DNA from: Lachnospiraceae bacterium
Lineage (GTDB): Bacteria > Bacillota > Clostridia > Lachnospirales > Lachnospiraceae
DNA length: 54,441 nucleotides
Direction of reading: 5' to 3'
Assembly: GCA_017463225.1 (NCBI GenBank)
Contig: JAFTPO010000052.1
Location: 1-54,441 of the forward strand
A program made the translations under genes and the position numbers. The notes under the pieces were generated by a model. The model worked only from the letters and a program-made list of their open reading frames with translations, had not been told where the DNA came from and ran no database searches. Each line of letters opens with the position of its first letter. The first letter of the stretch is position 1. Positions 5,052 through 39,156 of this stretch are shown piece by piece.

Positions 5052-6896
5052 TTATAGTGCCAAATTATATTTTCTCATCCAATAATCTATCTGGATTAAA
5101 TAAGCAAACATCTGTGGCTTTGCCATTAGCTGACCATACCATGGCTTTACATTATTCTCAGGACCATCAATTATAGCTTCTAAATATTGAATATTTAGGT
5201 ATGGACGAAGAGGAGAGGTGTGGTCGTGAATTATCTCTTTCATCCTTTCCTTTAGAAGTTCTTCATACTTAGGATGATAAGTCTTTGGATAAGGGCTTTT
5301 TGGTCTATTCATTATGGTATCGGGCAAATAATCCTTAGCTATTCTTCGCAATAGTCCCTTAGGTCTGTTATCACATAGCTTTATATCCCAAGGGATATTA
5401 AATACATAATCCATTAATCTATAATCTGCAAATGGTACTCGTGCCTCTAAACCATTATGCATTGATGTTCGATCCATTCTATCCAAAAGAGTTTGCATAA
5501 ACCATCTAATATTAAGAAAGGATATTCGTCTAAGTTTTTTATCCTTTTCAGATTCATGTGGAAGATAATTAATTTCTGAAACAGTCTTGTTATAAGCATT
5601 CTTAATGTACTTTTCCATTTGAAGTGTAGCTGCAAATTCCGGATTCAAAACGGATTTTCTAAATGTAATATCACTCATCCAAGGGAAGGTTCCCTGATTA
5701 ATCATTTCGTCTCTAAAAAACCAAGGATATCCGCCAAATAATTCGTCGGCACATTCTCCTGTTAATGCTACCTTATGAGTATTTGATACAAGAGAGCAGA
5801 AGTATAGTAAGGAGGAATCTATATCTGCCATAGTTGGTAAGCATCTTGAATCAACAGATTCTTCCAGTAAATCATATAAGGTCTCGTATTTACACGTTAA
5901 ATAGCTATGTTCTGAAGATATATAATCCTTCATAATATCTACATATGGTCTGTCCTCGCTTAACTGAAAGCTATGTGATTTAAAATGTTTTGAATTATCT
6001 TCATAATCGAAGGAGTATGTTGATAGCTTTTCACCTTTTGGAATATATTTACTACATATTGCTGATACAATAGAAGAATCAATTCCGCCGGATAAAAATG
6101 TACAAATTGGGACATCAGAAATCATCTGACTTTTAATACTGTCCTCAAGTAATTGTTTTGTTTTCTCTAAAGTAACATCAAAACTATCTTCATGAGGCGT
6201 GGATAATAATCTATAATAAAATCTTTTGTTTAACCCCTCTGAAGAATAAGCAAGATATTCACCTGGGAGAAGTTCTTTAATCCCATAAAATACACCACCA
6301 CCATAGGTTTTAGCAGGGCCGATTGTAAATATTTCATTAAATCCGTTGATATCTAAGCTTGGTTTTACACCTTTATATTCAAATAGTGTATCTATACGGG
6401 ATCCAAAGATAATTGTTTTACAATACATAGTATAGTACAATGGCTTAATCCCGAAATGATCTCTAAATAAAAAAAGAGCATTTTCCATATGGTCATATAT
6501 GGCTATAGCAAATATTCCATTTAAATGCTTGGCAAATTCAGGACCATATTCAATAAACATGTAGCCAATAACCTCTGTATCAGATTGTGTTTCAAAATCA
6601 TATCCCTTAGATATTAAATTGTTTTTAAGTTCCTTATAGTTATATATTTCTCCATTAAATACTATATGATAATGATTCCCATTAAAAGAGAGGCTCATAG
6701 GCTGGCTCCCTCCGTCAAGGTCTATAATAGATAGTCTTGCGTGAGCGAGACAGCAGGAGTTGATGATTTTAACACCATCTCCATCAGGGCCTCTTCTTTT
6801 AATGGTTTTAACCATATTATTAAGTATTTTAAAGTTATCCTTTGGATTGTTTGAAAAATTTATGTCTGGATTGTAAAAACCTGCGATTCCACACAT
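5052..6896 (-). CDS. asnB: Asparagine synthase (glutamine-hydrolysing)
   Basis: This enzyme makes asparagine from aspartate, glutamine and ATP. The protein starts MCGIAGFY, so Cys2, the nucleophile of the class II glutaminase domain, is exposed after removal of the methionine. The N-terminal glutaminase half (FNGEIYNYKELK, SDTEVI) is followed by the ATP-pyrophosphatase synthetase domain, with the P-loop-like SGGIDSSI and later LTGECADELFGGYPW. The length of 614 residues is typical of AsnB. It lies 44 bases downstream of the DAHP synthase gene on the same strand, which suggests co-transcription, although the two pathways are not directly linked. An 8-bp inverted repeat (TATAAAAC 6901-6908 / GTTTTATA 6921-6928) overlaps the leader just before the start codon. 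Confidence 0.95.
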   Translation of the reverse strand: MCGIAGFYNPDINFSNNPKDNFKILNNMVKTIKRRGPDGDGVKIINSCCLAHARLSIIDLDGGSQPMSLSFNGNHYHIVFNGEIYNYKELKNNLISKGYDFETQSDTEVIGYMFIEYGPEFAKHLNGIFAIAIYDHMENALFLFRDHFGIKPLYYTMYCKTIIFGSRIDTLFEYKGVKPSLDINGFNEIFTIGPAKTYGGGVFYGIKELLPGEYLAYSSEGLNKRFYYRLLSTPHEDSFDVTLEKTKQLLEDSIKSQMISDVPICTFLSGGIDSSIVSAICSKYIPKGEKLSTYSFDYEDNSKHFKSHSFQLSEDRPYVDIMKDYISSEHSYLTCKYETLYDLLEESVDSRCLPTMADIDSSLLYFCSLVSNTHKVALTGECADELFGGYPWFFRDEMINQGTFPWMSDITFRKSVLNPEFAATLQMEKYIKNAYNKTVSEINYLPHESEKDKKLRRISFLNIRWFMQTLLDRMDRTSMHNGLEARVPFADYRLMDYVFNIPWDIKLCDNRPKGLLRRIAKDYLPDTIMNRPKSPYPKTYHPKYEELLKERMKEIIHDHTSPLRPYLNIQYLEAIIDGPENNVKPWYGQLMAKPQMFAYLIQIDYWMRKYNLAL

Positions 6897-35680: not shown

Positions 35681-37045
35681 ATGATTAGTATAAATGAAGT
35701 TATAGAAACCAATGAGATGATTCAGAAGATGAATCTGGATGTTAGAACTATTACCATGGGTATTAGTTTATTAGACTGTGTAGGTGCTGATTTAAAGGAA
35801 ACCTGCCAGAAGATTTATGACAAGATTACATCATCAGCTAAGGACCTTGTATCTACAGGACAGGATATATCTAAAAAGTACGGTGTTCCTATTGTTCATA
35901 AGAGAATATCTGTAACACCTATAGCTTTAGTTGGTGGCTCTGTATGTAAGACTGAGGATGATTTTGTCGAGATAGCTAAAACACTTGATGCTGCTGCAAC
36001 TACCTGTGGAGTTAACTTTATAGGTGGATATTCAGCATTAGTATCAAAGGGTATGACTAAGGCTGATGAGCTTCTTATTCGCTCAATCCCTAAGGCTTTA
36101 GCTACCACTAATAAGGTGTGTAGCTCTGTAAATGCAGGTTCAACTAAGACAGGTATAAATATGGATGCTGTTAAGCTTATCGGTGAGATAATTCTTGAAG
36201 CTGCAGAGCTTACTAAGGAAGCTGATTCTATCGGATGTGCAAAGTTTGTAGTATTTTGTAATGCTCCAGATGATAATCCATTTATGGCAGGTGCTTTCCA
36301 CGGTGTAACTGAGGCAGATAGAATTATTAATGTTGGTGTCAGCGGACCTGGTGTTGTTAAGGCAGCCATAGAAACTGTACGCGGTGAAAACTTCGAGGTT
36401 CTCTGTGAGACTATTAAGAAGACTGCATTTAAGATTACAAGAGTTGGACAGCTTGTTGCTAAGGAAGCATCTGAGCGTCTTGGTGTTCCATTTGGTATTA
36501 TTGATCTTTCACTTGCACCTACACCAGCTGTTGGTGATAGTGTTGGCGAGATATTGGAGGAAATTGGTCTTGAGTTTGCCGGTGCTCCAGGAACTACAGC
36601 GGCTCTTGCTATGTTAAATGATCAGGTAAAGAAGGGTGGAGTTATGGCTTCATCATATGTAGGCGGATTATCAGGTGCATTTATTCCTGTTAGCGAGGAC
36701 CAGAGAATGATAGATGCTGTTTCAGCCGGCGCACTTACACTTGAGAAGCTTGAAGCTATGACCTGTGTATGTTCAGTAGGTCTTGATATGATCGCCATCC
36801 CTGGAGATACAAAAGCTACTACAATTTCAGGAATCATTGCAGATGAGATGGCTCTTGGTATGATTAACCAGAAAACAACTGCTGTAAGAATCATCCCTGT
36901 AATAGGTAAGGGTGTTGGAGAGACTGTAGAATTTGGTGGATTACTAGGATACGCACCAATTATGCCGGTAAATCAGTTTTCTTGCGATGCATTTATAAAT
37001 AGAGGTGGAAGAATACCAGCACCAATACATAGTTTTAAAAACTAA
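35681..37045 (+). CDS. PFL-family protein (UPF0210/DUF711)
   Basis: A 454-residue member of the UPF0210 (DUF711) family, whose fold is related to pyruvate formate-lyase-like barrels but whose reaction is unknown. Blocks visible are [53 protein letters not shown] and [23 protein letters not shown]. It is encoded 41 bases after the ACT-domain gene, the usual pairing. The codon use is optimised compared with neighbours, hinting at good expression. A highly structured repeat element starts six bases after its stop codon and may serve as its terminator. Confidence 0.9.
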
Positions 37046-37050
37046 GCATA

Positions 37051-37253
37051 AACAATGAGTCATGCACATAATCGCATAAATATAGATGTTTAATCTTGCT
37101 TAATTACAGATATATTTATGCGATTATGTATACGACGAATGTCGCGATACTAACGAAGCAGTAGCTTCGTTAGGAAGCATGACTCATTGTTTTTTACGGC
37201 GAATGTCGCGATACTAACGAAGCGGTAGCTTCGTTAGGAAGCATGACTCATTG
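37051..37253. repeat. Nested inverted repeat plus 59-bp tandem repeat, structured intergenic element
   Basis: An outer 15-bp perfect inverted repeat (AACAATGAGTCATGC 37051-37065 with 37177-37191) encloses an inner 19-bp perfect inverted repeat (37066-37084 with 37111-37129, 26-base loop). A 59-base unit at 37131-37189 is repeated at 37195-37253 with 57 of 59 bases the same. Each unit carries a 4-bp stem with a GAAT loop and a 10-bp perfect stem (37150-37159/37164-37173 and 37214-37223/37228-37237) and ends with the outer arm sequence GCATGACTCATTG. TTTTTT follows the first arm, so part of it could terminate transcription of the upstream gene. It is richer in GC than the surrounding spacers. 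No coding sequence and no known RNA family is recognised. Confidence 0.9.
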
Positions 37254-37287
37254 CTATTTTATAAAAAATTTATAAAGGAATTAAATT

Positions 37288-39156
37288 ATGACAAAACTTG
37301 CCCTGCCGGAAAGAATTCTTATGAATATAGACAAACCGGCAAGATATATTGGAAATGAAGTAAATATAGTAAAAAAGGACTTATCAAACATAGATATTAG
37401 AATAGCTATGTGTTTTCCAGATGTCTATGAAATTGGTATGTCATATCTCGGTCTTCAGATTCTCTATGATATGTTCAACAAGCGTGAGGATACCTACTGT
37501 GAGAGAGTTTTCTCTCCATGGCCAGACCTAGATAAAATTATGAGAGAAGAGGATATAAAGCTTTTCACTTTGGAAACCCAGAGCCCTATTATGGATATGG
37601 ACATGCTTGGTATCACAATTCAGTACGAGATGTGTTATACAAACATTTTACAGATACTTGAATTATCAGGAATGCCTTTATACTCAAAGGATAGAACCAA
37701 GGATATGCCAATAGTTATTGGTGGCGGTCCTTGTACCGTTAATCCTGAGCCAATAGCTGATTTCTTTGATATGTTTTATATAGGAGAGGGTGAAACCAGC
37801 TACGATGAGCTATTAGAGCTTATAAAAACATATAAATCAACTGATATGGATAAGGAAGATTTTCTTAGAAGAGCTTCAAACATCCCTGGTATATATGTTC
37901 CTTCTATGCATATGATAAGCTACAATCCGGATGGAACTGTACAAGAAATATCTACAAAATATGATGATATCCCAAAGACAATAAAAAGACAGGTTGTAAC
38001 TGATTTTAGTCAGGTTAGCTATCCACTTGCACCTGTAGTACCATATATAAAGGCAACCCAGGACAGAGTATGTCTTGAAATTATGAGGGGTTGTATAAGA
38101 GGTTGTCGTTTTTGTCAGGCTGGTATGATATATAGACCGACCAGACAAAAGGATGTCGAAATGCTCAAAAAATATGCCAGAGCTATGCTAGATAATACGG
38201 GATACGAGGAAATATCCCTTAGTTCCCTAAGTTCAAGTGATTATGAAAGCTTAGACGAGGTACTTACCTACCTTATATCCTTAAAGGATGAGGACCATGT
38301 AAACGTTTCTCTACCATCACTTAGAATCGATGCATTTTCGCTTGATGTTATGAGTAAGGTTCAGGATATTAGAAAAAGCTCTTTAACCTTTGCTGCAGAG
38401 GCAGGTACTCAGAGACTTAGAAATGTTATAAATAAAGGTATTACAGAGGAAGATATTTTAAATGGTAGCCGTCAGGCCTTTATAGGTGGCTGGGATAAGG
38501 TTAAGCTTTATTTTATGCTTGGTCTTCCTACTGAAAACGAGCAGGATTTACTCGGTATAGCAGAGCTTGCAGAAAAGATATCTGAGGAGTACTTTGATGC
38601 GGTACCTAAGGAGAAAAGAAATGGAAGAGTTATGATTAACGCGTCTGCATCTTATTTCGTACCAAAGCCATTTACCCCATTCCAGTGGGCACCAATGATT
38701 CTTCCCGAGGAATTCACTAAACGTGCCTACTACGTTAAGGACTCCTTTATGAAGCAAAAGAACAAAAAAAGTCTTAAGTTTACTTATCACGATGCCTACA
38801 TATCAATATTAGAAGGCGTATTGGCAAGAGGTGACAGAAGACTTAGCAAAACCATATATGATGTTTATAAAAAAGGCGCAATATTTGATGCATGGACAGA
38901 GTACTTTGATATGGACAAGTACAAAGATACTTTTGCTCAAAATAATGTTGATATCGAATTCTATACAGCTAGGGAGCGTCAAGTTACAGAGATACTACCT
39001 TGGGATCACATAGACGCCGGTGTATCAAAGAATTTCCTTATAAAAGAGTGGGAGAGGGCTAAGAACGAGACAGTTACACCTAACTGTCGTATGAATTGTT
39101 CGGGATGTGGTTCTGCCACTTACGGAGGAGGTGTGTGCTTTGAAGCTAAGAATTAA
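37288..39156 (+). CDS. B12-binding-domain radical SAM protein (TIGR03960 family)
   Basis: A 622-residue radical SAM enzyme of unknown substrate. An N-terminal cobalamin-binding-like domain (about 30-200, including GGGPCTVNPEPIADFFD) precedes the radical SAM barrel, whose 4Fe-4S cysteines are C269, C273 and C276 in RGCIRGCRFCQAG. A cysteine-rich tail (NCRMNCSGCGSATYGGGVCF) ends the protein. This gene is regularly followed by the DUF2344 gene, RNase G/E and L21, as here, so a role in tRNA or ribosome modification has been suspected from context but is not shown. The next gene's start overlaps its last codons, implying coupled translation. Upstream is the repeat element; the ribosome site is AAAGGAA. 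Confidence 0.88.
   Translation: MTKLALPERILMNIDKPARYIGNEVNIVKKDLSNIDIRIAMCFPDVYEIGMSYLGLQILYDMFNKREDTYCERVFSPWPDLDKIMREEDIKLFTLETQSPIMDMDMLGITIQYEMCYTNILQILELSGMPLYSKDRTKDMPIVIGGGPCTVNPEPIADFFDMFYIGEGETSYDELLELIKTYKSTDMDKEDFLRRASNIPGIYVPSMHMISYNPDGTVQEISTKYDDIPKTIKRQVVTDFSQVSYPLAPVVPYIKATQDRVCLEIMRGCIRGCRFCQAGMIYRPTRQKDVEMLKKYARAMLDNTGYEEISLSSLSSSDYESLDEVLTYLISLKDEDHVNVSLPSLRIDAFSLDVMSKVQDIRKSSLTFAAEAGTQRLRNVINKGITEEDILNGSRQAFIGGWDKVKLYFMLGLPTENEQDLLGIAELAEKISEEYFDAVPKEKRNGRVMINASASYFVPKPFTPFQWAPMILPEEFTKRAYYVKDSFMKQKNKKSLKFTYHDAYISILEGVLARGDRRLSKTIYDVYKKGAIFDAWTEYFDMDKYKDTFAQNNVDIEFYTARERQVTEILPWDHIDAGVSKNFLIKEWERAKNETVTPNCRMNCSGCGSATYGGGVCFEAKN

Follow-up and report, generated by a model that had tools for sequence, protein, structure and literature searches.

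The segment between positions 37046 and 37258 of JAFTPO010000052.1, a contig of 54,441 nucleotides from a Lachnospiraceae bacterium that was analyzed over its whole length and is called the window below, is probably one copy of a dispersed element family of about 150 bp that consists of small non-autonomous mobile elements of Lachnospiraceae. The segment follows directly on a DUF711 gene. It had been described in an original prediction as a set of nested inverted repeats with a tandem repeat, for which a MITE-like element (miniature inverted-repeat transposable element), a structured 3' untranslated region (UTR) or terminator and an uncharacterised RNA were considered. The family is real, large and apparently undescribed, and no paper on it was found in the searchable part of open-licence PubMed Central, with supplements excluded and the catalogue of 3161 candidate RNAs of PMC8040213 not compared.

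Dispersal and shared fold of the family

The BLASTN comparison of the segment with its own genome and those of its genus, which the original prediction had proposed, recovered this locus alone in the own genome and four matches in each of three genus genomes, at different places. From 14 aligned copies, all taken from these first matches, we built a covariance model (R1), which has no modelled pairs in hairpin III and whose E-values are rough. R1 matches (E<=0.01) were present in 33 of the 37 genomes of the genus, with 20 in the window's own genome (G000), 36 in G009, 29 in G003, 25 in G031, 22 in G013 and one to ten in each of the other 28, while the four genomes without a match are at most 80% complete. 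Of 299 genomes sampled evenly from Lachnospiraceae, 133 had R1 matches (E<=1e-5), and a phylum sample that served as negative control contained them in 4 of 299, all of them Lachnospiraceae (the own genome, one congener and two others); the stricter filters of both scans lose weak matches. A scan of named genomes with the DNA pattern ATACGRCGAAYGYCGCGACA returned at least 115 stretches. Those among the matches listed come mostly from metagenome-assembled genomes of Lachnospiraceae from rumen and gut, and also from Butyrivibrio hungatei NK4A153, Butyrivibrio XPD2002, XPD2006, INlla18 and INlla21, Lachnospiraceae FE2018, Eubacterium cellulosolvens LD2006 and a record titled Sarcina sp. DSM 11001. 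Five pattern stretches from Chloroflexi and Alphaproteobacteria had no R1 match and are probably chance matches. A dominant bacterial family of gut and rumen is host to a large element family.

The window holds no Rfam 15 match at gathering score, in line with the claim that no known RNA is recognisable there. Across 20 carrier loci nine Rfam 15 matches were found (T-box, ZTP, tRNA, TwoAYGGAY and one group II), none on a copy, the sole overlap being about ten bases of a tRNA end in locus L038. A single locus-specific RNA is ruled out by the dispersal of the copies, and the case named at the outset as fatal, a lone copy whose stems lack covariation, is itself refuted, with copies dispersed and stems covarying.

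A typical copy opens with the 5' end GCGCGTTAGC and continues as a four-way junction in the order outer stem, hairpin I (about 64 nt, with a loop that is often CTTG or TTTA), linker ATA, hairpin II (CGRC-GAAY-GYCG or GGC-GAA-GCC), hairpin III and right arm. The minimum free energy fold has a three-branch multiloop in 54 of 59 copies, and the junction was judged by eye to be the same across copies, with departures in L005, L006, L053 and L061. The outer stem usually spans about 10-15 bp (112 of 145 copies with the anchor), and the GCGCG part of the 5' end is mirrored in the right arm in few copies only. Among 101 aligned copies, 37 of the 41 modelled pairs (outer stem, hairpins I and II) change on both sides, the covariation score reaches 0.565 compared to 0.174 (sd 0.006) in shuffled and at most 0.123 in slid alignments, and 90.4% of cells are paired compared to 68.8% after shuffling; this alignment was fitted to the R1 structure and therefore leans towards it. 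The arms are also more complementary within a copy than between copies, at 0.82 compared to 0.51 for hairpin I and 0.79 compared to 0.50 for hairpin III (49 of 54 parsed folds).

The mismatches tolerated in the stems bear on the strand that folds. In 50 copies found by model or BLAST, G.T outnumbers A.C by 84 to 29, and in hairpin I of 94 copies that were found by the DNA pattern alone, and hence independently of the model, by 87 to 50 (p 0.002), with 40 copies favouring G.T, 14 favouring A.C and 40 ties. Since G.T exceeds A.C in hairpin I, the + strand is probably the folded strand. GC skew is positive in 78 of 138 copies, which leaves replication-strand bias uninformative. Long hairpins that keep pairing despite replacement of their sequence offer a natural test of structure selection at the DNA as opposed to the RNA level.

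Insertion sites

The occupancy of individual loci differs between genomes of the genus. Behind the DUF711 gene, G000, G003 and G009 carry the element, G030 a right-end remnant and G013 and G031 no element, yet the DUF711 proteins of the latter two are 100% identical to that of the window. The ssb locus carries the element in G000 and none in G013, G009 and G031. At metF it sits at the very end of the coding sequence (CDS) in G009, is missing there in G000 and G013, and is found farther downstream as an opposite-orientation copy in G031. The gene names ssb, metF, pgm, groL, thrS and ABC transporter used in this study, as well as the label RAYT, were read from sequence with no family search.

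The left ends follow the consensus (T)TTTGCGCGTTAGCAATGAGCCATGC, and 88 of 116 copies have a GCGCG-like motif there. Closer examination of 145 unique copies (of 155 listed, some orthologous) revealed a terminator-like hairpin with T-tract directly at the left end in 35, compared to none of 141 right flanks and to 17 of 640 random TTTT ends as control. At least three T precede the start in 78 of these 145 copies and no T in 20. Among the sites occupied are the terminators of a T-box leader and a ZTP riboswitch as well as the 3' ends of tRNA genes. Gene context was determined for 119 copies with a crude caller of open reading frames (ORFs), a few of which are short and doubtful. Among these, 47 start within 40 nt of the upstream stop codon or overlap it, and some CDSs run into the element, which then supplies the stop. 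Copies lie mostly in sense at the 3' ends of transcription units: among the 109 with called genes on both sides, 75 have an upstream gene that is directed towards the element, the orientations of upstream and downstream neighbour being (+,+) in 50, (+,-) in 25, (-,-) in 21 and (-,+) in 13. The element couples mobility with the termination of transcription and could remodel gene ends, both terminators and C-termini, broadly.

Several observations were made at individual insertion sites. ORFs that enter the element in L018, L073, L117 and L172 gain a C-terminal tail ARxNEPC or ARYNETC, followed by an element-borne stop. The copies in L034, L106, L109, L161, L180 and L194 lie in differing surroundings and are flanked on both sides by near-direct repeats that resemble the palindrome AAACTGAAAGTTT. 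As far as could be told, these flanks do not fit a usual target duplication, nor did the core motifs of integron attC sites fit them, and the two such loci with ORFs listed showed no cassette array. A different long inverted-repeat element (GTTTGCGAATGTCGGTACTTAGCGAGG...) lies just downstream of DUF711 in L080 (G010) and L081 (G005), from two other species of the genus, so repeats of more than one family occupy this intergenic site. In the window's own genome, two TwoAYGGAY RNA matches lie on opposite strands near a T-box locus (L065:5302-5467 and 5671-5836).

The copy in the window and its modules

The element of the window occupies the space between the DUF711 gene (35681-37045), whose assignment to PF05167 was confirmed, and a radical S-adenosylmethionine (radical-SAM) gene (37288-39156). 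Its parts are the following.

37043..37045, + strand: stop codon TAA of the DUF711 gene; the element starts directly 3' of it, and G013 and G031 are without element there
37046..37052, + strand: 5' end GCATAAA of the element, read as a degenerate local version of the left terminus GCGCGTTA of the family; its final three bases take part in the outer stem as well
37050..37065, + strand: left arm of the outer stem, AAACAATGAGTCATGC; covaries in the family
37066..37129, + strand: hairpin I, long, hypervariable in sequence with pairing kept; from fold, covariation and the same locus in G003 and G009
37130..37132, + strand: linker ATA, conserved
37133..37144, + strand: hairpin II, CGACGAATGTCG; covaries in the family
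37150..37173, + strand: hairpin III, CTAACGAAGCAGTAGCTTCGTTAG; from the fold and comparison of copies
37177..37192, + strand: right arm of the outer stem, first copy
37195..37258, + strand: 3' module, tandem second copy; same repeat type in 22 of 138 family copies
37197..37208, 37214..37237 and 37241..37253, + strand: hairpin II, hairpin III and right arm of the second copy

The repeats reported from the letters of the window were all recovered. The inner inverted repeat (37066-37084/37111-37129) is perfect, as is the outer one (37051-37065/37177-37191), the actual extent of which is 16 bp (37050-37065/37177-37192). The two 59-base copies differ solely at 37135/37199 and 37160/37224 (A/G in both cases), the change at 37199 turning an A-U pair into G-U and the other lying in a hairpin loop, and the full tandem unit comprises 64 nt (37131-37194 and 37195-37258; 94%). 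The region 37040-37287 folds at -96.1 kcal/mol compared to a shuffle mean of -47.9 (sd 4.2, z -11.4), a value equalled by none of 200 shuffles. The two mutually exclusive folds that had been proposed are indeed nearly equal in predicted energy, at -96.1 kcal/mol with the first right arm and -95.4 with the second, and the mean pairing probability is 0.85 for the former and 0.15 for the latter. As a switch this arrangement is not general in the family, for the 3' module (hairpins II and III plus arm) is repeated within 230 nt only in the 22 copies noted above, out of the 138 with enough right flank for this count, and in none of 138 shuffles at the same threshold. The tandem repeat of the window is nevertheless a family trait, because these 22 copies share it.

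Hairpin I is swapped between otherwise similar copies. At an ABC-transporter locus with three orthologous copies, hairpins II and III are shared; G000 and G003 have a hairpin I of one sequence class, and G013 has a wholly different one. At the DUF711 locus, stem evolution faster than neutral was not supported: hairpin I divergence in pairs of G000, G003 and G009 amounts to 0.27-0.48 compared to 0.35-0.41 at four-fold sites of DUF711, and hairpin III is a mosaic in which 2, 15 or 16 of 24 positions differ. The hairpin I slot holds several extra hairpins in L135 and L319. In the former (L135:4600-4925) four similar hairpins fill about 240 nt, with a fifth just downstream of the copy, and in the latter (G031, 3' of a phosphoglucomutase-like gene) nested extra hairpins within hairpin I lengthen the element much.

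The outer stem can also run into host sequence, over 21 bp in L067 and 23 bp in L064 (both at CDS ends) and over 25 bp in L038 (a tRNA end). Because the right arm is an inverted copy of the host's left flank in these three loci, their sequences suggest that the right arm may be extended by fold-back copying.

Proposed mechanism and competing explanations

The explanation to which we give most credence, with fair but far from full confidence, is that of a non-autonomous, terminator-homing element that is sometimes kept as a 3'-end structure. A trans-acting enzyme, perhaps no longer resident in the genome of the window, would recognise the folded + strand and attach the element by its 5' end behind a run of T, which a terminator hairpin often presents. 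Some copies may then persist for long, since their hairpins act as terminators or 3'-end structures for the gene upstream. Terminator targeting has precedent, since group IIC introns insert at intrinsic-terminator motifs according to the part of PMC4424553 that was consulted. Of 145 copies, 55 carry a T-rich run (at least 6 T in 8) in the 3' arm of hairpin I and one carries such a run in the 5' arm, a bias in the direction expected of a terminator hairpin. The run in the 3' arm is found in 27 of 45 copies at stop codons compared to 7 of 36 at terminator loci (p 0.0003), the terminator class being set here by locus name and thus counting 36 copies compared to 35 by hairpin count. The enzyme behind this mobility would deserve interest as a terminator-recognising integrase.

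A number of points weigh against this explanation. Searches of carrier drafts and loci for Y1 transposases, reverse transcriptases (RTs) and a partner element identified no mobilising enzyme. Many of the genomes are incomplete drafts (G003 is 87% and G009 82% complete), and some of the counted copies are orthologous and hence not independent. The GCGCG-like left terminus is recognisable in the 88 copies given above only and is degenerate in the window, and the T-tract preference could partly reflect selection against insertion in genes. The contrast between stop-codon and terminator copies is confounded by genus (inside 21 of 30 compared to 2 of 6, outside 6 of 15 compared to 5 of 30). A simple terminator scan called no terminator in the window copy, none in L023 and only minus-strand ones in L335. 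In hairpin III of the 94 pattern-derived copies G.T and A.C stand at 30 and 32, so that the strand preference is modest and mixed, and a palindrome effect at the DNA level may account for part of the pairing.

By description, the element works like the BOX and SPRITE repeats of pneumococci. BOX is described in the accessible part of PMC3049150 as a small interspersed folded repeat of the form boxA-boxB(n)-boxC, with a variable tandem module, inverted ends and target duplications, and as probably non-autonomous. The element shares with it the small size, the interspersed and highly folded nature and the tandem-variable module, and differs in its four-way junction, its mostly sense placement behind terminators, its hypervariable and exchangeable hairpin I, its family-wide host range and the lack of a clear duplication. 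SPRITE, according to the same source (PMC3049150), has one 18-bp duplex with a U-rich tract and AAAA/TTTT ends, is enriched at gene 3' ends with a suggested co-option as terminator, and has no established target duplication. The location at gene 3' ends, the suggested terminator co-option and the lack of a clear target duplication are common to both, while the element forms a three-hairpin junction and is also placed behind existing terminators.

A stronger proposal, which we offer as speculative and regard as doubtful, is a new class of terminator-homing mobile elements, in which the folded + strand, as RNA or single-stranded DNA, would be joined by its 5' end to a T-tract where a transcription unit ends, the right arm would be extended by fold-back copying of host sequence, and hairpin I would act as an interchangeable cassette with room for extra hairpins.

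Unlikely as well is an ordinary MITE, that is, a deletion derivative of a DDE insertion sequence that moves via its terminal inverted repeats and whose inner structure is incidental. The element is short (about 150 bp), non-coding, multi-copy and dispersed, with ends that may be read as terminal inverted repeats, and in L132, L178 and L113 a longer inverted end is retained, both arms of which contain GCGCG. Direct repeats of at least 8 bases flank 2 of 143 copies compared to 0.3 expected; at a length of at least 5 they flank 18 of 143 compared to 12.6 expected (sd 3.1), so that the target-site duplications predicted for a mobile element amount to a faint excess over chance at most. Of the MITE-like element originally envisaged, the essence thus stands, in the form of a non-autonomous element with dispersed copies, empty sites and constant structure, and the target-site duplications do not. 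An ordinary MITE is further opposed by outer arms that covary rather than being fixed, by internal stems under pairing constraint and by the mostly sense placement behind T-tracts, and a longer element sharing these ends was not seen in any locus read, complete genomes lying outside this screen for an autonomous partner.

A conserved cis-acting 3'-UTR RNA, a terminator or stabiliser that is inherited vertically and whose dispersal would be a side issue, is quite unlikely. It would account for the near-exclusive location of the T-rich run in the 3' arm and for the situation downstream of the phosphoglucomutase-like gene, where 13 of the 28 genus loci that could be read carry the element, in one case without its right part (35 genomes with the gene, 30 fetched, presence judged by eye), and where compensatory changes at one site replace both arms (GCAGG/CCTGC, GTAGG/CCTAC, GAAGG/CCTTC). 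It does not agree with the mixture of occupied and empty sites among genomes whose DUF711 proteins are 99-100% identical, with the non-orthologous dispersal or with the 35 of 145 copies that are already directly behind a terminator-like hairpin. The structured 3' UTR or terminator that had been suggested is supported in part, as the fate of some copies.

More improbable again is an element of single-stranded DNA of the IS200/IS605 or REP/RAYT type, for which a Y1 (HUH) transposase would read the folded hairpins and insert behind a short T-rich target. The folded + strand, the T-rich 5' flank at the left end and the lack of a clear target-site duplication fit such an element, and Y1 genes were found in 16 of 22 carriers other than the five genus genomes with the highest copy numbers. 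However, Y1_Tnp was not found in the remaining 6 of these 22, one of which (G099) holds several similar copies, nor in G000, G003, G009 and G013, four of the five highest-copy genomes, as drafts with possible gaps; in the fifth, G031, one Y1 fragment and two RT matches were found. R1 detected no copy (E<=1) in 22 Y1-containing loci, mostly with long, RAYT-like ORFs, and only isolated short look-alike motifs occur there. REP/BIME elements (repetitive extragenic palindromes and bacterial interspersed mosaic elements) with RAYT transposases are non-coding, hairpin-rich, dispersed and extragenic, all of which holds for the present element; unlike them, it was not found next to RAYT-like genes, and several carriers yielded no Y1. 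RVT_1 was likewise not found in G000, G003, G009 and G013, and was found in 14 of the 37 genus genomes. Resident Y1 transposases or RTs do not explain the element. A retron-like minus-strand reading (arm, short hairpins, long hairpin, arm) was rejected on the + strand G.T excess in hairpin I and the failure to find RVT_1 in the four high-copy genomes.

A fragment of a group II intron-related retroelement is very improbable: sense insertion at intrinsic terminators, as for IIC introns (PMC4424553, consulted in part), and a minority of copies that start GTGCG speak for it, and against it are most left ends, which read GCGCG, the lack of a group II match of Rfam in the window and on the copies of the 20 loci tested, and the four of five highest-copy genus genomes in which no RT was found, G031 with its two matches being the fifth. 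One group II intron match is located in Butyrivibrio hungatei NK4A153 (L121:6772-6842), about 1.2 kb from a copy of the element.
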